A stretch of 32,122 nucleotides of DNA from Alphaproteobacteria bacterium. Its GTDB lineage: Bacteria; Pseudomonadota; Alphaproteobacteria; VGDZ01. Position 1 is the first letter of the stretch. The number at the start of each line of letters is the position of its first letter. Where the stretch lies: positions 1 to 32,122 of the forward strand of contig VGDZ01000032.1 of assembly GCA_016869515.1 (NCBI GenBank), given 5' to 3'. The position numbers and the translations under genes are program-made. This document shows, piece by piece, positions 2,957 through 30,534 of this stretch. Under the pieces are notes generated by a model. That model did no database searches and had not been told where the DNA came from. It saw only the letters and a list, made by a program, of their open reading frames with translations.

Positions 2957-4615
2957 TCACATGTTCGGATAGTTGGGACCGCCGCCGCCTTCGGGCACCA
3001 CCCAGGTGATGTTCTGGGTCGGATCCTTGATGTCGCAGGTCTTGCAGTGGACGCAGTTCTGGGCGTTGATCTGCAGGCGGGGATTGGCGCCGGCGGCGTC
3101 GCGCACGATCTCGTAGACCCCGGCCGGGCAGTAGCGCTGCTCGGGCGCGTCGTAATCGGCCAGGTTGATCGCGATCGGCGTCGCCGGATCCTTCAGCCGA
3201 AGGTGGACCGGCTGGTCCTCCTCGTGGTTGGTCGAGGACAGGAACACCGAGGACAGCCGATCGAAGCTGATCTTGCCGTCGGGCTTGGGATAGGCGATCG
3301 GCGCGCAGTCCCGCGCCGGCCGCAGGCCGACATGGTCGGGCTTGAGCCCGAAGGTCCAGGGAATCAGGAAACCGAAGCCGAGCGATTGCAGCCACATCTC
3401 GACCCCGCCGTAAATCGAGCCCGGCCACATGCCCCATTTCAGCGCCGGCTTGACGTTGCGCACCGCCCGCAGATCGTCGCGAATCCAGGATTCGTCGACC
3501 GCGTCCTGGTACTCGATCATGGCCTCGCGCCCCTCGCCGCCCGCGCGTAGGCGCGCGAACGCGGCTTCGGCCGCCAGCATGCCCGACTTCATGGCGTTGT
3601 GGGTGCCCTTGATGCGCGGCAGGTTGACGAAGCCGGCGGCGCAGCCGATCAGGCAGCCGCCGGCGAAGGCCAAGCGCGGCACCGCCTGCCAGCCGCCCTC
3701 GTTGATGGCGCGCGCGCCATAGGCCAGGCGCTTGCCGCCCTCGAAGGTCGGGCGAATCAGGGGATGGGTCTTGAAGCGCTGGAATTCCTCGAACGGCGAC
3801 AGATGCGGATTGGCGTAGTCGAGATGGACCACGAAGCCGACCGCGACCTGGTTGGCGTCGAGGTGATAGAGGAAGGCGCCGCCGCCGGTGTCGTTGTCCA
3901 AGGGCCAGCCTTGGCTGTGCAGCACCAGGCCGGGCTTGGCTTTGGCGGGTTCGATCTCCCACAGCTCCTTGAGGCCGATGCCGTATTTCTGCGGCTGGCG
4001 GCCGCGGCGCAGATCGAAGCGGTCGATCAGCTGCTTGGACAGCGAGCCGCGCGCGCCCTCGGCAAAGAAGGTGTATTTGCCGTGCAGCTCGACGCCGGGG
4101 GTATGCCCGGCCTTGGGCTGGCCGTCGCGGCCGATGCCCATGTCGCCGGTGGCGACGCCCTTGACCGCGCCGTCGTCGTGGAACAGCACCTCGGCCGCGG
4201 CGAAGCCGGGATAGATCTCGACCCCCAGTTCCTCGGCCTGCTTGGCCAGCCAGCGGCAGACATTGCCCAGGCTGACGATGTAGCAGCCGCGATTCGACAT
4301 CAGCGGCGGCAGAAAGAGATGCGGAACTTCGAAGCCGCCGCTTTCGGTCAGAATCAGATGCCGGTTGTCGGTCACTTCGACCGCGATCGGAGCGCCCATC
4401 TGGCGCCAATCCGGCAGCAATTCGTCCAACGCCTTGGGATCGATCACCGCGCCCGACAAAATATGCGCGCCGATCTCGGAGCCCTTTTCGATCACGCAGA
4501 CCGAGATCTCGGCTTGGTGCTTCTTGGCCAGTTGGCGCAGGCGGATCGCCGCCGCCAGCCCGGCCGGGCCGCCGCCGACGATCACCACGTCATAGGACAT
4601 CACATCGCGCGCCAT
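2957..4615 (-). CDS. Electron-transfer-flavoprotein:ubiquinone oxidoreductase
   Basis: This membrane-associated enzyme (552 residues, normal size) passes electrons from reduced ETF, generated by acyl-CoA and other dehydrogenases, to the ubiquinone pool. The N-terminus has the FAD dinucleotide-binding fold (YDVVIVGGGPAGLAAAIRL, residues 8-26) and the family signature IEKGSEIGAHILSGAVIDP. The C-terminal ferredoxin-like part carries the four cysteines for the single 4Fe-4S cluster: C496 (CPAGVYE) and C521, C524, C527 (NCVHCKTCDIKDP). Two starts are possible, ATG 4615 and ATG 4600 (MSYDVV); the first is preceded by purine-rich GAGGGATAGGGACC and is preferred. It is the first gene of the ETF-QO/TPR/ispE unit and is divergent from the caspase gene. 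The ETF subunit genes are not in this window. Confidence 0.96.
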   Translation of the reverse strand: MARDVMSYDVVIVGGGPAGLAAAIRLRQLAKKHQAEISVCVIEKGSEIGAHILSGAVIDPKALDELLPDWRQMGAPIAVEVTDNRHLILTESGGFEVPHLFLPPLMSNRGCYIVSLGNVCRWLAKQAEELGVEIYPGFAAAEVLFHDDGAVKGVATGDMGIGRDGQPKAGHTPGVELHGKYTFFAEGARGSLSKQLIDRFDLRRGRQPQKYGIGLKELWEIEPAKAKPGLVLHSQGWPLDNDTGGGAFLYHLDANQVAVGFVVHLDYANPHLSPFEEFQRFKTHPLIRPTFEGGKRLAYGARAINEGGWQAVPRLAFAGGCLIGCAAGFVNLPRIKGTHNAMKSGMLAAEAAFARLRAGGEGREAMIEYQDAVDESWIRDDLRAVRNVKPALKWGMWPGSIYGGVEMWLQSLGFGFLIPWTFGLKPDHVGLRPARDCAPIAYPKPDGKISFDRLSSVFLSSTNHEEDQPVHLRLKDPATPIAINLADYDAPEQRYCPAGVYEIVRDAAGANPRLQINAQNCVHCKTCDIKDPTQNITWVVPEGGGGPNYPNM

Positions 4616-19646: not shown

Positions 19647-20462
19647 ATGGCCGAGGTCTTCGCCTATCGCGCGGGCGCGCTGCCGATCCTGCTGTCGATC
19701 CCGCATGGCGGCCGCGCCATCCCGGCCGACATCGCCGCCGCCATGAGCGATGCCGGCCGCGCCGTCGCCGACACCGACTGGCATCTCGACCGGCTGTGGG
19801 ACTTCGCCAATTTGCGCGGCTGCCACGTGCTGGAAGCGCGCTACAGCCGCCACGTCGTCGACCTCAACCGCGATCCCGACGGCAAGCCGCTCTATCCCGG
19901 CGCCGAGAACACCGAACTGGTGCCGCTGACCGGGTTCGGCCGCGAGCCCTTGTGGCGCATCCCGCCCGACGCCACCGAGATCGAGCGCCGCAAGCGGCTT
20001 TATTGGCGGCCCTATCACGACCAATTGGTGGCCGTGCTGGCGGCGATCAAGGCCGCGCACGGCATCGCCATGCTGTTCGAGGCGCATTCGATCCGCGGCC
20101 GCGTGCCGCGGCTGTTCGAGGGCGAATTGCCCGATTTCAATTTGGGATCGGCCGACGGCCGGTCCTGCGATCCCGCGCTGGCGCAGCGGATGCTGAACGT
20201 CTGCCGCGCCGTGCCGGGCTATAGCGCCGTCCTCGATGGCCGTTTCAAGGGCGGCTACATCACGCGCCGTTACGGCCGCCCGGCCGAGCACGTCCACGCC
20301 GTCCAACTCGAACTGGCGCAGCGGGTCTACATGGAAGAGGCGCCGCCCTGGACCTATTCGCCGCGCAAGGCCGATTTGCCGCGCCATGGGCTGATGGCGC
20401 TGATCGACACCCTGGCCGATTACGCGCGGGCGTTCATGTATTCGGCCAGCGCCGCGCGCTGA
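19647..20462 (+). CDS. N-formylglutamate amidohydrolase family
   Basis: The 271-residue cytoplasmic protein matches the FGase family: ILLSIPHGGRAIP (first metal-binding His), DTDWHLDRLWDF, RHVVDLNRDPDG and LFEAHSIRGRVP, the last giving another metal ligand. HutG of this family releases formate from N-formyl-L-glutamate at the end of a histidine breakdown route. No other hut genes are in the window, so it may act on a different N-formyl or N-acyl amino acid, perhaps the product of the adjacent amidase; that link is inference. ATG 19647 is five bases after the amidase stop. Its 3' end overlaps convergent glpD by 43 bases. Confidence 0.85.
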   Translation: MAEVFAYRAGALPILLSIPHGGRAIPADIAAAMSDAGRAVADTDWHLDRLWDFANLRGCHVLEARYSRHVVDLNRDPDGKPLYPGAENTELVPLTGFGREPLWRIPPDATEIERRKRLYWRPYHDQLVAVLAAIKAAHGIAMLFEAHSIRGRVPRLFEGELPDFNLGSADGRSCDPALAQRMLNVCRAVPGYSAVLDGRFKGGYITRRYGRPAEHVHAVQLELAQRVYMEEAPPWTYSPRKADLPRHGLMALIDTLADYARAFMYSASAAR

Positions 20463-21901
20463 GCCGGGGTCAGCCGCAGCCCGGCCTTGGTCCGCCGCCA
20501 CATCACGTCCTCGGCGCGGCGCGCCCATTCCTCGGCCATCAGCCAATCGACCTCGCGCCGATAGAGATCCGAGCCGAAGCGCGTGCCGAGATCGGCCTCG
20601 CCGCGCACGCCTTCCAGCATGCGATCGACCCGCGTCCCGTGCCGACGCGCAAGCCGCTTGACCAGGCCCGGCCGCAGCTCGGGAAAGCGCCGCCGGAGGC
20701 CGTCGAGAAAGGCCTCGAAATCCGCCCCCGCCATGTCGCCGCCGGGCAGCGGCGCGGCCTCGGTCCAAGCCCGGCCCATGGCCGGGAAATAGGGCGCCAG
20801 CTTTTCCAGCGCGTGCTCGGCCAGGCGGCGATAGGTGGTGATCTTGCCGCCATAGATCGACAGCGCCGGCGCGCGCCCGTCCTGGTCCTCGACCTCCAGC
20901 ACGTAGTCGCGGGTCACCGCCGAAGGATCGTCGCTGCCGTCGTCGAACAGCGGTCGCACGCCGGAATAGCTCCACGCCACTTGGCCGGGATCGGCCTTGA
21001 GGTCGAGGAAGCGGTTGGCGGCGCGGCAGAGATACTCGGTCTCCTCGGACGAGATCGAAACCGGTCCCGGCGGGCCGTCGACGGCGATGTCGGTGGTGCC
21101 GATCAGCGAAAAATCGGTCTCGTAGGGAATGACGAAAATCACCCGCTTGTCGTCGTTCTGCAGCATGAAGGCATGATCGCCGTCGTGGCGCTTGGGCACG
21201 ACGATGTGGCTGCCCTTGACCAGGCGCACGGTCGGCCCGGCATTGGCGCCGAGGCCCTTGCGCCGGAACTGCTCGACCCAAGGCCCGGCGGCGTTGACCA
21301 AGGCGCGGGCATGGACCGGTCCGCGGCCTTCGAGTTCGACCGTCCACAGCCCGTCCGCGCGCCGCGCCGCCAGGCAGCGCGTCCGGGTCAGGATTTCGGC
21401 GCCCTTGTCGCGCGCGCCGACCGCGTTCAGCGCCACCAGCCGGGCATCGTCCACCCAGCAATCGGAATAGGTGAAGCCCTTGCCGAAACGCGGCTCCAGG
21501 CCGCGGCCAAAGGGCCCGTGCAGATCGACCGCGCGCGAGCCCGGCAAGCGGTCGCGCCCGCCGAGATGGTCGTAGAGGAACAGGCCCGCGCGCAGCATCC
21601 AGGCCGGGCGCTGGTCGGGGGTGTGCGGCAGCACGAAGGTCAGCGGCCAGACGATATGCGGCGCCGCCTTCAGCACCACCTCGCGCTCGGTCAGCGCCTC
21701 GCGCACCAGCCGGAATTCGTAATATTCGAGATAGCGCAGGCCGCCATGGATCAGCTTGGTCGAGGCCGAGGACGTGGCCGAGGCCAGATCGTCCTGTTCG
21801 ACCAGCAGCACATCGAGGCCGCGGCCGGCAGCGTCGCGGGCGATGCCGGTGCCGTTGACGCCGCCGCCGACGACGATCAGGTCGCGGACGCGCTCGCTCA
21901 T
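20420..21901 (-). CDS. glpD: FAD-dependent glycerol-3-phosphate dehydrogenase GlpD
   Basis: The 493-residue membrane-associated flavoenzyme oxidises sn-glycerol-3-phosphate to dihydroxyacetone phosphate and passes electrons to ubiquinone. Visible features: FAD-binding DLIVVGGGVNGTGIARDAAG (8-27), the family signature SSASTKLIHGGLRYLE, VRLVKGSHIVVP, the IPYETDFSLIGTTD block, GVRPLFDD, and SIYGGKITTYRRLAE near the C-terminal cap domain. Length is normal. ATG 21901 overlaps the stop of the MscS gene (ATGA, 21898-21901), so the two are coupled. No glpF, glpK or glpR is present in the window. Confidence 0.96.
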   Translation of the reverse strand: MSERVRDLIVVGGGVNGTGIARDAAGRGLDVLLVEQDDLASATSSASTKLIHGGLRYLEYYEFRLVREALTEREVVLKAAPHIVWPLTFVLPHTPDQRPAWMLRAGLFLYDHLGGRDRLPGSRAVDLHGPFGRGLEPRFGKGFTYSDCWVDDARLVALNAVGARDKGAEILTRTRCLAARRADGLWTVELEGRGPVHARALVNAAGPWVEQFRRKGLGANAGPTVRLVKGSHIVVPKRHDGDHAFMLQNDDKRVIFVIPYETDFSLIGTTDIAVDGPPGPVSISSEETEYLCRAANRFLDLKADPGQVAWSYSGVRPLFDDGSDDPSAVTRDYVLEVEDQDGRAPALSIYGGKITTYRRLAEHALEKLAPYFPAMGRAWTEAAPLPGGDMAGADFEAFLDGLRRRFPELRPGLVKRLARRHGTRVDRMLEGVRGEADLGTRFGSDLYRREVDWLMAEEWARRAEDVMWRRTKAGLRLTPAQRAALAEYMNARA

Positions 21902-24107: not shown

Positions 24108-25208
24108 TCATGGATCGCGACGTTCCGGATCGGCAGTCGTCCGGTCGTGGTTGGCTTCAGTCGCGATTTGCCTTGCCAAGATCGCGAACGCCAAGGCGAC
24201 GAGAGGCGCCATGTCGGTCATGACGCGAGTCTCGGCCATGACCGAATGGACAAACATGAACAACCAGAAAGCTGCCACCACCGCCAGCAACCGAATTGCG
24301 ATTTCGTCAAGCAGCCGCCAACAGAAAACCAAGGGGAATATCAACAAACCCCAAACGGAAAATATCGTGATCGAGTTGTAAATGTCTCCGATCGTGACTC
24401 GGCCGTCCGAGACAAGGAAGATATATTTCAAATTTCCGGTAGTTCGTAGGACAAATCCCTTCAAATCGAACTGCTGGAACGCATCGCATCCGGGCGGTTC
24501 GCGCAGCGAGAGCTTCAGCACCATGTACGTGCCCACTCCAGCCAAGACCATGCCCCCACACCAGAGAAGTACGGAGCGGTTCCTTGCCCACGACGTCCCA
24601 ACCGAGAACGGTGCCGCCAAGCGCACCCGCAATGCCGCATACAACAGGACCAGGAAAATTGTCGCTTCCCGGTTGGCTATCGCGAAGGGAATCATAGCCA
24701 GCAGCCAGCCCGGCCGGTTGGCCAGGACAAGCGCCAAGCCGGTCGTCATGAACAACAAGGACAGTCCGGTATAGGGAACCCAATCGCCGCCGGACTCGAT
24801 CGTATTGAATTGCCACAGAACGGCGTATGCGAACGGCAACAGCGCAACGATCGAATAGGGACGACTGCGGAAGAATCGTTCTACCGTCGACCGGAAGATC
24901 AGCAAAGCCGCAGTCACACTGGCGATATCGACCGCGTACCAAAATCGCTTTTCCGCGATCCGCAGATTTTCGAACCCCAAGGCCAGCAGCGCCTCGCGCA
25001 CCGCATAGAAAGGCCCAAGCCGCGATCGCGGCGGATAGCACCGACCCAGTTCGATGTTGTTGAAAATGTAGGCGATCCGCTCGGTCGACAAGAAATAGTA
25101 CGTCTTGGTCACGACCACGGCGAAGGCCAGCGCGATCCCCAAGCACAGGACATGAAACGCCCATCCGTTGCGACTTGTTGTCGACGTCGCGCCAACGCCC
25201 GTTGCCAT
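24108..25208 (-). CDS. Multi-pass membrane protein, unknown, lower GC
   Basis: The 366-residue protein has roughly eight to nine hydrophobic helices (for example FHVLCLGIALAFAVVVTKTY, then LLWCGGMVLAGVGTYMVLKL and LLAVVAAFWLFMFVHSVMAE). A hydrophilic loop after the first helix includes GRCYPPRSRLGPFYAVREAL. The arrangement recalls integral-membrane GT-C-type glycosyltransferases or polymer ligase-like proteins, but I see no DxD or EED motif near the first loop, so no function is assigned. Base composition is visibly lower in GC than in flanking genes. It starts at ATG 25208, divergent from the radical SAM glycan operon, and may belong to the same locus. Confidence 0.75.
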   Translation of the reverse strand: MATGVGATSTTSRNGWAFHVLCLGIALAFAVVVTKTYYFLSTERIAYIFNNIELGRCYPPRSRLGPFYAVREALLALGFENLRIAEKRFWYAVDIASVTAALLIFRSTVERFFRSRPYSIVALLPFAYAVLWQFNTIESGGDWVPYTGLSLLFMTTGLALVLANRPGWLLAMIPFAIANREATIFLVLLYAALRVRLAAPFSVGTSWARNRSVLLWCGGMVLAGVGTYMVLKLSLREPPGCDAFQQFDLKGFVLRTTGNLKYIFLVSDGRVTIGDIYNSITIFSVWGLLIFPLVFCWRLLDEIAIRLLAVVAAFWLFMFVHSVMAETRVMTDMAPLVALAFAILARQIATEANHDRTTADPERRDP

Positions 25209-25493: not shown

Positions 25494-26819
25494 TTGAAGA
25501 TCCTGGTGCTCGACGTCTACCCGCGCAAGGGCTATCGGGTGACCAAGGACACCAATGGCGGCTACGGCACCTCGAACGATTACGGACGGGGATTGATTCC
25601 CTATCTGCTGACCCGCCTGGTCGCCAAAGGCGTCGATTGGCCGCCGATGTTCTCGGCCTATGCCGCGGGCGCGCTGCGCCATGCCGGGCACGAGGTGCGA
25701 TATTCGCGCGACGTGGCGGATGCGGCCGGCGCGGATCTGTGCGTGCTCCCGTCCTCGATCGTCGCACATGAGACCGAGGTCGAGGCGGTCAGGACGGTGA
25801 CCGCACAGGGCATCCCCGCCATGGTCATCGGTCCATTTGCCGGCAGCGTCCCCGAACCCTACATCGCCGCCGGCGGCAAGGTGCTGGGCGGCGAGCCCGA
25901 GATGTATCTGCGCGCCTCGCTGCCGCCGACGGTCGAGGGCGTCAAAGCGTTGCCGGACATGATCCCGGCGGCGGCGGCGGCGGAGGTCGACGCGCTCGGA
26001 TTCTATCCGGCCTGGGACTTGATGACCGGTTCTGCGCCGCGCATGCGATTCATCGGCAAGGGCATGACGGTACCGATCCTGGCGACGCGCGGCTGCCCTT
26101 ATTCCTGCAGCTACTACTGCACCTACCCCCTGCAGCAGGGCCGCAAGGTGCGGGCGCGCGATCCCGAACACGTGGTCGGGGAGATGGCGCATTGGCAGGA
26201 TACACTCGGGGTCGGGTCGTTCATCTTCCGCGATCCGGTGTTCTCGATCGACCGTCGCCACACCTTGGCGCTGTGCGATGCCATCGAGCGCTCCGGGCGC
26301 AAGTTCGCCTTCGGCATCGAGACCCATCTCAAGAACCTCGACGACGAGTTGGTGGCGCGCCTGAAACGTGCCGGGCTGCGCATGATCTATGTTGGCATCG
26401 AATCGGTGACGCCCGAGGTGATCAAGGACGCGCGGCGCTTCTCGCTGGCGGTCGACGAGCAGAGCGCGCGCGTGCGCATGGTCGAGGCGGCCGGCGTCAA
26501 GCTCAAGGCGATGTACATCTTCGGCCTGCCGCGCGACACGGTCGAGACCTGCGAGGCGGCGATCCGCTACGCCGTGGCGCTGAACTCGACTTACGCCCAG
26601 TTCAACATCTTCACCCCCTATCCCGGCACGCCGATCTTCCAGACCTACCGCGAGCGCATCGTCTCGCGGCACTACGAGGATTTCGGCCAGTCGATGCTGG
26701 TGTTCCGTCACGACAATCTCAGCCCGGCCGATGCCCGCGACCTCCTCAGCCGCGCCTATAGCCGCTATTACGGCAACCCGGCGTGGTGGCTGCGCCACGC
26801 GTTGCAGGCCTTCGCGTGA
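25494..26819 (+). CDS. B12-binding-type radical SAM enzyme with CX3CX3C motif
   Basis: The 441-residue protein starts at TTG 25494, seven bases after AGGAG. Residues 1-140 look like the N-terminal cobalamin-binding (Rossmann) module: KILVLDVYPRKG, then LRHAGHEVRYS, DLCVLPSSI and VIGPFAG. Residues ~190-400 are the radical SAM barrel, with IFRDPVFS, FGIETHLKNLDDELVARLK, IYVGIESVTPEVI, YIFGLPRDT and FNIFTPYPGTP. The cluster cysteines are C201, C205 and C209 in RGCPYSCSYYCTYP, a CX3CX3C spacing one residue longer than the usual CX3CX2C. Relatives methylate or rearrange lipids, sugars and other small molecules. It overlaps the next gene by GTGA, so its substrate may be a sugar or lipid-linked glycan; this is inference. 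Confidence 0.9.
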   Translation: MKILVLDVYPRKGYRVTKDTNGGYGTSNDYGRGLIPYLLTRLVAKGVDWPPMFSAYAAGALRHAGHEVRYSRDVADAAGADLCVLPSSIVAHETEVEAVRTVTAQGIPAMVIGPFAGSVPEPYIAAGGKVLGGEPEMYLRASLPPTVEGVKALPDMIPAAAAAEVDALGFYPAWDLMTGSAPRMRFIGKGMTVPILATRGCPYSCSYYCTYPLQQGRKVRARDPEHVVGEMAHWQDTLGVGSFIFRDPVFSIDRRHTLALCDAIERSGRKFAFGIETHLKNLDDELVARLKRAGLRMIYVGIESVTPEVIKDARRFSLAVDEQSARVRMVEAAGVKLKAMYIFGLPRDTVETCEAAIRYAVALNSTYAQFNIFTPYPGTPIFQTYRERIVSRHYEDFGQSMLVFRHDNLSPADARDLLSRAYSRYYGNPAWWLRHALQAFA

Positions 26820-27646
26820 ACCCGCCCGTCGTCGGCCTGACCGGCGCGACGGGTTTCCTCGGCACGGCATTGACGGCGGCGCTGACGCGGCGCGGGGCGC
26901 GGGTCGTGGCGCTGCGGCTTGGGCCATTGCCCAAGCTCGACCGGCCGACCATCGAAGCGCTGCTGGCGGGGGCGGGCCCATTCGATCGTCTGATCAACTG
27001 CGCCGCCGACAAACGGCCGCGCGATGCGCGCGCTTGGTTCGTCAACGCCGAGCTGCCGGGTATCCTCGCCGCGCTGGCCGGCCCGGGACGGCTGATCCAT
27101 GTCAGCACCGCCAATGTCGATCACCCCGATCAGGGCGATCCCTATACCGAAAGCAAGCGCGCCGGCGAACGCGGGCTGGCGGCAGGTGGCGCTACGGTGC
27201 TGCGGCCGGGATTGATCTGGTCGTGGAGCGGCCAAGGCGATGGCGCGCTGTTCGCGCGTTATCTTGATCTGCCGCTTCCTTGGCACCCGATGCTCAGTCC
27301 CGGCAATCGCTATCGGCCGGTTCTGGTAGGCGATCTGGCCGAGGCGATCGCGGAGTTGGCATTGTCGGATCGTCCACCCGAAATCGTTCGCATCCTAGGG
27401 GACCGCGCCTGCAGCCTGTTCGACCTGTTTGCAGACTATGCCGCCGGGCGCAGGCGCCGGGCCCTGCCGCTGGCGCTGGGCTGGCTCGGCCGCCTGCCCG
27501 GCGCCTTGACCCGGCCGATGACCCGGCATGAGCGCCTGATCCAGCTGCTGCCGCTCGATCGCACGCGGTCAGGTCCGGTGCCGGGCATCCGTTCGGCCGC
27601 GCGCGAGCTGGTGCTGCCCTTCCCGCCCGCGCCGCGCGGCGCTTGA
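26816..27646 (+). CDS. NAD(P)-dependent sugar epimerase/dehydratase-like protein
   Basis: The 276-residue protein is an extended short-chain dehydrogenase: VVGLTGATGFLGTAL at the start (TGxxGxxG cofactor loop), LIHVSTANVDH with the catalytic Ser/Thr region, and YTESKRAGE containing YxxxK. It is shorter than classical nucleotide-sugar epimerases (about 310-340) and resembles RmlD-like or atypical reductases. Substrate unknown. GTG 26816 overlaps the radical SAM stop (GTGA), so the two are coupled; longer starts upstream would lie inside that gene. The next gene, a glycosyltransferase, follows after 34 bases. Confidence 0.85.
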   Translation: MNPPVVGLTGATGFLGTALTAALTRRGARVVALRLGPLPKLDRPTIEALLAGAGPFDRLINCAADKRPRDARAWFVNAELPGILAALAGPGRLIHVSTANVDHPDQGDPYTESKRAGERGLAAGGATVLRPGLIWSWSGQGDGALFARYLDLPLPWHPMLSPGNRYRPVLVGDLAEAIAELALSDRPPEIVRILGDRACSLFDLFADYAAGRRRRALPLALGWLGRLPGALTRPMTRHERLIQLLPLDRTRSGPVPGIRSAARELVLPFPPAPRGA

Positions 27647-27680: not shown

Positions 27681-28772
27681 ATGTCGCCCCTGCTCACGGT
27701 CATCGTTCCCACGCTCAACGAGCGGCCCAACATCCGGCCACTCCTGGCCAAGCTCGACCAGGCCCTGGCCGGCGTCGCCTGGGAGGCGATTTTCGTCGAC
27801 GACGCCTCGCAGGACGGCACGCCCGACGAGGTGGCGGCGGTCGCGGCCGAGCGACCCAATGTCCGGCTGATCGAGCGCGTCGGCCGGCGCGGCCTGTCCT
27901 CGGCCTGCATCGAGGGCATGCTGGCCAGCACTGCCAAGCTGGTAGCGGTGATCGACGGCGACCTGCAGCACGACGAATCGATCCTGCCGCGGATGCTGGC
28001 GGCCTTTGCCGCCGATTCGGCGCTGGACCTGGCCATCGGCAGCCGCTTCGTGCCGGGCGGCGGGGTCGGCGAGTGGAGCGCCGGCCGCCTGACCGTCAGC
28101 CGCTTCGCAAGTCAGTTGGGCCGCCTCGTGCTGCCGGTGCCGTTGGCCGATCCGATGAGCGGCTTTTTCATGCTGCGACGCGAGGTCGCTCGCCGTCTTG
28201 CACCCAGGCTCAGCGCGCGCGGCTACAAGATCCTGCTCGACCTGGTCGCCACCGCCGGCCCCGGCGTCAAACTGGTCGAGATCCCCTACACCTTCCGCGA
28301 CCGCCAGGCGGGCGAGAGCAAGCTGAGTTCGCGCGTCGTCCTCGACTATCTGATCATGCTGGCCGACAGGCTGGTCGGCCAATGGGTGCCGATCCGTTTC
28401 GTGCTGTTCGTGGCCATGGGCATGGTCGGCCTGACCTTCCATCTCGCGGTGCTGGGCCTGTTCCATGTCCTGGTCGGCCAGGGCTTCCGGCCGGCGCAGT
28501 TCATCGCCGCCGGCACCGCGATGACCGTCAACTATTTCCTCAACAACGCCGTGACCTACCGCGATCAGCGCAAGCAGGGCGCGGCGCTGCTGCGCGGGCT
28601 GGTGGTGTTCTACCTGCTGTGTTCGGCCGGGCTCTACATCAACCTCGAAGTCGCCGGCAGCGCCTTCGACAAAGGCGCGGCCTGGTGGTTCGCCGGCACT
28701 CTCGGCGCGCTGGTCGGCGCCCTGTGGAACTTCGCCGTCAACACCGCCTTCAACTGGCGGGTTCAAGCCTGA
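27681..28772 (+). CDS. DPM1-type GT2 glycosyltransferase fused to GtrA domain
   Basis: The 363-residue protein has a cytoplasmic GT-A domain (~1-225) and a C-terminal GtrA-like membrane domain (~230-360, four helices). Motifs include TVIVPTLNERPNI, VDDASQDGT, the DxD-like IDGDLQHD, GSRFVPGG, and the polyprenyl-phosphate mannosyltransferase block YKILLDLVA followed by YTFRDRQAGESKLS. Such enzymes transfer mannose or glucose from a nucleotide sugar to polyprenyl phosphate. GtrA domains are thought to help flip the product across the membrane. Start ATG 27681 follows AAGCGGGG. With the upstream radical SAM and epimerase genes it suggests a modified, lipid-linked sugar for the envelope. Confidence 0.93.
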   Translation: MSPLLTVIVPTLNERPNIRPLLAKLDQALAGVAWEAIFVDDASQDGTPDEVAAVAAERPNVRLIERVGRRGLSSACIEGMLASTAKLVAVIDGDLQHDESILPRMLAAFAADSALDLAIGSRFVPGGGVGEWSAGRLTVSRFASQLGRLVLPVPLADPMSGFFMLRREVARRLAPRLSARGYKILLDLVATAGPGVKLVEIPYTFRDRQAGESKLSSRVVLDYLIMLADRLVGQWVPIRFVLFVAMGMVGLTFHLAVLGLFHVLVGQGFRPAQFIAAGTAMTVNYFLNNAVTYRDQRKQGAALLRGLVVFYLLCSAGLYINLEVAGSAFDKGAAWWFAGTLGALVGALWNFAVNTAFNWRVQA

Positions 28773-29544: not shown

Positions 29545-30534
29545 TCAGACGGCGATACGGCCGCCGAGTTCGTCCTCGACGAAACCGCGGATGACGCTGT
29601 CGATGTCGGGATCGTGCTCGAAACCCAGCTTGCGCGCCAGCAAGGAATCGCAGCCCTTGGGCCAGGTGGCGACGATGCGCTGGATGAAGGGGTCGGGCAC
29701 GAACTTGATCCGCTCCGCCACCTTGGCGCCGGCGACGCGCGCCAGCGCCTCGACCATGGCGCCGATCGACACCATCTGCCCCGGCAGCGTGATGGTACGC
29801 GTGGCTCGAAAAGCCTTGGCATCGACCTGATGGGCGCGGATCAGCGCCTCGACCACCTTGCGCGGGCTGAGGATGGGATGGCGCACCTCGCGATCGACCG
29901 GGCAGATCGCCTCTTGGCCGGTCAGCGGCTCGCGGATGATGCCGCTGGCGAAGGACGAGGCCGCCTTGTTGGGCTTGCCCGGGCGGACGACGATGGTCGG
30001 CAGCCGCAGCGAGCGGCCGTCGAGGAAGCCCTTGCGCGAATAATCCGACACCAAGAGCTCGCCCATCACCTTCTGCGCGCCGTAGCTGGTCTCGGGCGTG
30101 GGCGGGGTGTCGTCGGTCACGGTCTCGGGAATGGCGCCACCATAGGCCGCGACCGAACTGGTGAACACGACCCGCGGCTTGGCGCCGGAATGGCGGCAGG
30201 CTTCGAGCACGTAGCGCGTGCCGTCGAGATTGATGCGATAGCCGAGATCGAAATCCTGCTCGGCTCCGCCCGACACCACCGCGGCGAGATGGAACACCCC
30301 GCCGACCTGGGGATCGATCAGGGCGCGCATCTGGGCCGCATCGGAAATGTCGCCCGCCACGGCGCGGGTCTTGAGCTTGAGACCCTCGGTGCGCGGCGCC
30401 TCGACGTCGAGCAGGATGAGTTCCTCGATCGGCGTCTCGCGCCCGCCCGGCCCCGCCAGGCTGCCGCGTGCCGACAAGGCGCGCGCCAGCCGCTGGCCGA
30501 TGAAACCGCCGCCGCCGGTGATCAGGACTTTCAT
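29545..30534 (-). CDS. denD: D-erythronate dehydrogenase-like epimerase (DenD)
   Basis: The 329-residue extended short-chain dehydrogenase starts MKVLITGGGGFIGQRLA and has VFHLAAVVSGGAEQDFDLGY, VFTSSVAAYGG (catalytic Ser), the YGAQK YxxxK site and LRLPTIVVRPGKPNKAASSF. The SGGAE-DFDLG and RPG(K)PN-AAS blocks are those of the DenD family, which oxidises D-erythronate at C2 with NAD in breakdown of four-carbon sugar acids. The kinase and isomerase of that pathway are not in this window, so activity on a related sugar acid is possible. ATG 30534 has GGAGG ten bases upstream; a longer frame to 30579 is less likely. It is followed by the SDR gene at 29519. Confidence 0.88.
   Translation of the reverse strand: MKVLITGGGGFIGQRLARALSARGSLAGPGGRETPIEELILLDVEAPRTEGLKLKTRAVAGDISDAAQMRALIDPQVGGVFHLAAVVSGGAEQDFDLGYRINLDGTRYVLEACRHSGAKPRVVFTSSVAAYGGAIPETVTDDTPPTPETSYGAQKVMGELLVSDYSRKGFLDGRSLRLPTIVVRPGKPNKAASSFASGIIREPLTGQEAICPVDREVRHPILSPRKVVEALIRAHQVDAKAFRATRTITLPGQMVSIGAMVEALARVAGAKVAERIKFVPDPFIQRIVATWPKGCDSLLARKLGFEHDPDIDSVIRGFVEDELGGRIAV

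Follow-up and report, generated by a model that had tools for sequence, protein, structure and literature searches.

The radical SAM protein encoded at positions 25494-26819 of the window (the whole stretch of 32,122 nucleotides that was analysed) is most likely an enzyme of the AprD4 kind from an unstudied branch. Its cluster motif is CX3CX3C, the established spacing of the characterised enzyme AprD4; it reflects no error and no new geometry.

The radical SAM gene and its cluster motif

The gene and its motifs are positioned as follows.

25494-26819, + strand: AprD4-like radical SAM protein, 441 amino acids, TTG start, probable sugar 1,2-diol dehydratase (PF04055, NF033070, 6fd2)
25545-25568, + strand: N-terminal family motif KDTNGGYG, residues 18-25 (Gly22 and Gly25 invariant in 37 rows)
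26091-26123, + strand: cluster-binding motif GCPYSCSYYCT, read by direct translation
26226-26243, + strand: family motif FRDPVF, residues 245-250 (Arg246 in 37/37 family rows, 8/95 outside)
26319-26324, + strand: Glu276-Thr277, candidate active-site pair, common to AprD4 (Glu276 in 37/37 family rows, 14/95 outside)

The translation of 25494-26819 contains ILATRGCPYSCSYYCTYPLQQGRK, and the cluster motif is RGCPYSCSYYCTYPLQQGRK. Direct translation places C201 at 26094-26096, C205 at 26106-26108 and C209 at 26118-26120. The motif is C201-PYS-C205-SYY-C209 and, as the sequence-only reading had stated, is one residue longer than CX3CX2C. The protein passed the superfamily domain test (Pfam Radical_SAM PF04055, 46.7 bits; cut-off 29.5) and departs from the canonical radical SAM criterion, CX3CX2C. 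Since exceptions to CX3CX2C are known in the superfamily, AprD4 (PDB 6fd2) among them, it stays eligible for membership. The same genome (3.69 Mb in 166 contigs) was scanned for PF04055 and gave 14 matches; only the window gene has CX3CX3C, and the other 13 have CX3CX2C.

In the family alignment the extra residue sits right behind C205, in the column of S206. When CX3CX2C relatives are aligned, the Tyr208 column is the F/Y that ordinarily precedes the third cysteine, so a single residue has been added, and the Tyr-Tyr pair as such is not the insertion. The earlier claim of a single inserted codon stands, while its assignment to Tyr-Tyr has to be corrected to the position directly after C205.

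Relatives and family hallmarks

A contig scan with the window protein alone as query gave no matches in genome contigs. A profile built from the window protein and AprD4 led to 80 loci in species-representative genomes, and their motifs were tabulated for each reading-frame match; one of the two search patterns required CX3CX3C, and the share of this spacing among the matches is no estimate of its frequency. All of the nearest 27 loci (L021-L047) have CX3CX3C. Their best-segment identity is 44-56%, and they come from Thiomargarita, Thioploca, other Thiotrichaceae, SAR11 and other Alphaproteobacteria. The same spacing was found in remoter loci of Verrucomicrobiota/Lentisphaerota (L048, L049), in AprD4 loci of Actinomycetota (L051, L053-L055), and in Omnitrophota (L052), Planctomycetota (L064), Nostoc (L095) and a Thermoplasmata archaeon (L061). 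Since two further class-level genomes found with a full-length profile (L131, L132) carry it too, its constancy among the nearest relatives is not tied to the spacing-demanding pattern alone.

The AprD4-like family alignment, which includes the window protein and reaches from SAR11 to the archaeon, has CX3CX3C in all 37 rows. The three cysteines, Y208, Y211, P212, G216, F245-R246-D247, F250, E276 and E303 are invariant. YP follows as residues 2 and 3 past the third cysteine in every row, the window protein included, and the N-terminal GGxG motif reads GAFG in two rows. The CX3CX3C proteins are marked by the GGxG-type motif, FRDPxF and YCxYP, and also by E276-T277. The spacing is fixed within this coherent group, which bears out the earlier suggestion of a distinct subfamily. 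Glu276 and Thr277 are candidates for a catalytic role.

The comparison set outside the family consisted of 95 CX3CX2C relatives. Only three of them carry GGxG, FRDPxF and YCxYP together: L050 from Pacearchaeota (match 3876-4583), L056 from Omnitrophota (3674-4288) and L057 from Elusimicrobiota (2156-2824). Since these proteins combine the hallmarks with CX3CX2C, the spacing seems to vary within the family. In trees built without the motif columns, the CX3CX3C proteins separate into an AprD4 group and a window group, and the latter also takes in L050 and L057. Constraining the CX3CX3C groups to one clade gave a borderline p-AU of 0.050. A single gain followed by losses is possible, as are two gains.

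Comparison with AprD4

The best curated profile for the window protein was NCBIfam AprD4 (NF033070; E 1.2e-42). The score of 146.4 bits is far short of the cut-off of 500 bits for the AprD4 equivalog (paromamine dehydratase). AprD4 (6fd2) was also the best solved structure by sequence (E 2.5e-35), at an identity of about 25-34%. An AlphaFold2 model made from the family alignment reached a mean pLDDT of 93.5. Its top fold match was again 6fd2 (E 7.2e-28, TM 0.81; runner-up E 1.3e-17 or weaker, TM near 0.6), a match that may be favoured by the AprD4 sequences included in the alignment behind the model.

The cluster motif of AprD4, GCPYPCRFYC, is itself CX3CX3C, and the AprD4 chains carry the FRDPVFS and ET signatures in common with the window protein. 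The primary AprD4 papers reportedly remark on the unusual motif. AprD4 was purified, assayed and crystallised by others. The sequence-only reading had considered a possibly undescribed variant with altered cluster geometry, and had named a characterised family with this spacing as the finding that would speak against it; AprD4 is such a family, and the geometry is not new.

The title of 6fd2 describes a radical SAM 1,2-diol dehydratase in complex with the substrate paromamine. In apramycin biosynthesis AprD4 works with the NADPH reductase AprD3 in C3' deoxygenation, which proceeds by diol dehydration and then reduction (PMC5461906; PMC7941887). Elsewhere in the literature the string CX3CX3C occurs with 'radical SAM' for a sactibiotic peptide. 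A review (PMC9692996) gives the NifB motif once as CX3CX3C and elsewhere as CX3CX2C, and the former is probably a misprint.

The window protein and AprD4 also have in common the GGxG motif, the predicted fold, the lack of a cobalamin motif and the association with an SDR reductase. Unlike AprD4, the window protein has neighbours of the glycan-assembly type, with an RmlD-like reductase directly downstream; at the AprD4 locus the nearby reductase gene, presumably AprD3, codes for a classical SDR. There is no aminoglycoside gene cluster around the window gene; the neighbours are the SDR, a GT2-GtrA protein, an erythronate dehydrogenase and others.

The window protein also shares its domain layout, a Rossmann-like N-terminal domain and a radical SAM core, with the cobalamin-binding radical SAM group of BchE, HpnJ, TsrM and MgmA, and similarity to this group is detectable by profile and by fold. 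However, the group has CX3CX2C and many of its members bind cobalamin, whereas the window family has CX3CX3C and lacks the cobalamin motif DxHxxG. DxHxxG is absent from all 37 family rows but also from all 95 CX3CX2C relatives compared, and is therefore non-discriminating. The score of the window protein for B12-binding PF02310 (14.9 bits) is below the cut-off of 32.1.

Neighbouring genes

Three genes lie next to the radical SAM gene or close by.

26816-27646, + strand: RmlD-like NAD(P)-dependent reductase (SDR), 276 amino acids (RmlD_sub_bind 31.0 bits, cut-off 27); its start overlaps the radical SAM stop by 4 bases
27681-28772, + strand: polyprenyl-phosphate-type family 2 glycosyltransferase with a C-terminal GtrA membrane domain (Glycos_transf_2 95.9 bits, GtrA_DPMS_TM 47.6 bits)
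24108-25208, - strand: multi-pass membrane protein, 366 amino acids, about 6 hydrophobic segments, divergently oriented to the radical SAM gene, uncertain whether part of the system

The reductase resembles RmlD (dTDP-4-dehydrorhamnose reductase) in its Pfam family, just above the cut-off, in its fold and in the YxxxK pair, which is kept as YTESK. Fold matches of its AlphaFold2 model (pLDDT 90.4) include the RmlD and MAT2B family alongside further extended SDRs. However, with 25 bits the reductase falls far short of the 224 bits required for an RmlD equivalog, and it adjoins a radical SAM gene instead of standing in an rml operon. The membrane protein at 24108-25208 had no Pfam or NCBIfam match, and it may act in the same pathway as a membrane-bound glycosyltransferase. 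Further away on the - strand, the window encodes a D-erythronate dehydrogenase (29545-30534; NF043036, 438.7 bits against a cut-off of 325) and the glycerol-3-phosphate dehydrogenase GlpD (20420-21901; 744.8 bits).

The run of radical SAM, SDR and glycosyltransferase genes has exactly the same order in L027. The Thiotrichaceae variant of this order has a WecG/TagA-type transferase, and six SAR11 loci (L032, L038, L040, L043, L045, L046) have a classical SDR just upstream. Among the window-branch loci, an SDR lies at most two genes away in 21/29, against 4/212 genes lying farther out at these loci (Fisher p 1e-7), and a glycosyltransferase in 15/29, against 3/212 (Fisher p 6e-6); the related SAR11 loci do not count as independent observations in these statistics, and the test leans toward near genes, since its neighbour profiles derive from these very loci. 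At the other eight loci no SDR lies that close, and three of these (L023, L034, L036) lack a glycosyltransferase within two genes as well. Three SAR11 loci (L038, L040, L042) show a run of radical SAM, GT2, a small protein (~150 amino acids) and a large membrane-type protein (434-442 amino acids), apparently a SAR11 glycan-modification operon with unannotated members.

Proposed reaction and alternative explanations

We think it rather probable that the window protein is a cobalamin-independent enzyme of the AprD4 kind which dehydrates a sugar diol, and that SDR reduction of the product yields a deoxysugar for a membrane-linked or cell-surface glycan. C201, C205 and C209 would hold one [4Fe-4S] cluster, which would bind SAM and cleave it reductively to the 5'-deoxyadenosyl radical. 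The radical would abstract a hydrogen from a hydroxylated carbon of a sugar 1,2-diol, and water would leave the neighbouring carbon to give a keto-deoxy sugar. The adjoining RmlD-like reductase would then convert the ketone with NAD(P)H into a deoxysugar, and the GT2-GtrA protein would move it via a polyprenyl-phosphate carrier into the cell-surface glycan. The loop just past C205 presumably accommodates the extra residue as part of the normal active-site architecture of the family, with an unchanged ligand set.

The position of AprD4 as the top characterised match by profile, sequence and predicted fold favours this dehydratase reading. So do the CX3CX3C, FRDPVFS and ET signatures common to both proteins, the dehydration and reduction carried out by AprD4 with AprD3, the SDR and glycosyltransferase genes that recur close by in the window branch, and, for independence from cobalamin, the missing DxHxxG motif and the low B12-binding score. 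Counting against it are the low identity to AprD4, the missed NF033070 cut-off and a reductase of the RmlD type rather than a classical SDR. The loci that have no nearby SDR also count against it, as do the trees, which do not firmly unite the AprD4 and window groups.

The same fold and cluster could serve another outcome, in which a sugar or polyol carbon is epimerised or oxidised and the SDR acts on the product. Sugar-acting radical SAM relatives do carry out dehydrogenation and epimerisation, BtrN and NeoN being examples on sugar substrates, and the type of the partner reductase varies between branches. The partitioning of DesII between outcomes is discussed in PMC11434129. However, R246, E276, FRDP and GGxG are common with the dehydratase AprD4 and indicate the same active site, and the recurrent coupling to a reductase fits the need of a dehydration to a ketone. 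We therefore consider epimerisation or oxidation unlikely.

A substrate other than a sugar, namely a lipid or polyprenol diol of membrane-lipid synthesis which the glycosyltransferase would decorate, appears quite improbable. Several SAR11 loci lie near a gene group that, by eye, includes a cyclopropane-fatty-acid-synthase-like protein, but these genes are mostly in the opposite orientation and are confined to a few SAR11 genomes that are close relatives, whereas the sugar-type partners recur over branches and phyla.

Only the unusual spacing speaks for a cluster that is genuinely altered, held by a fourth protein ligand and not cleaving SAM. Outside the motif, only C261 is well conserved in the 37-row alignment (33/37). 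It is a cysteine in 70/95 CX3CX2C relatives as well, nearly as frequently, and is therefore no special ligand of the CX3CX3C group. A fourth cysteine ligand was rejected, and the earlier proposal of one finds no support. In addition, others have demonstrated radical SAM dehydratase activity for AprD4, which has the same spacing (PMC5461906), and we regard an altered cluster as very improbable. A sequencing or assembly error in the inserted codon, which a single contig with one copy could suggest, is refuted by the intact reading frame and by independent relatives in many phyla with the same spacing, of which the nearest are about 40-55% identical: tabulated across homologues it was identical in 37/37 rows, which excludes a local error and agrees with the original dismissal of a sequencing slip.

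Distribution and significance

The window branch was found in 3/385 sampled genomes of the window's class. In this class the scores fall from 571 to 220 bits after the branch members, and the lower matches that were inspected do not have the hallmarks. Plasmid and phage records searched for relatives of the window protein gave none at the limits used, and viral contigs gave only distant radical SAM proteins with at most 30% identity. A mobile-element origin of the window gene was rejected on these results.

The motif is already known, and its value here is chiefly for annotation, as the CX3CX3C group would escape any search that insists on CX3CX2C. A further suggestion is more tentative. The window branch may represent an unrecognised radical SAM deoxysugar route for lipid-linked surface glycans in SAR11, sulfur-oxidising Thiotrichaceae and rare Alphaproteobacteria, and a single dehydratase-type family may naturally switch its cluster spacing between CX3CX3C and CX3CX2C. 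Since L050, L056 and L057 bear the hallmarks with CX3CX2C, the role of the extra residue is testable, and these proteins are natural counterparts for a direct comparison of its effect. If the deoxysugar reading is true, radical SAM diol dehydration, whose biochemistry is known from aminoglycoside biosynthesis, would have a second use in the synthesis of surface glycans, and this use would extend to bacteria that rank among the most abundant in the sea.
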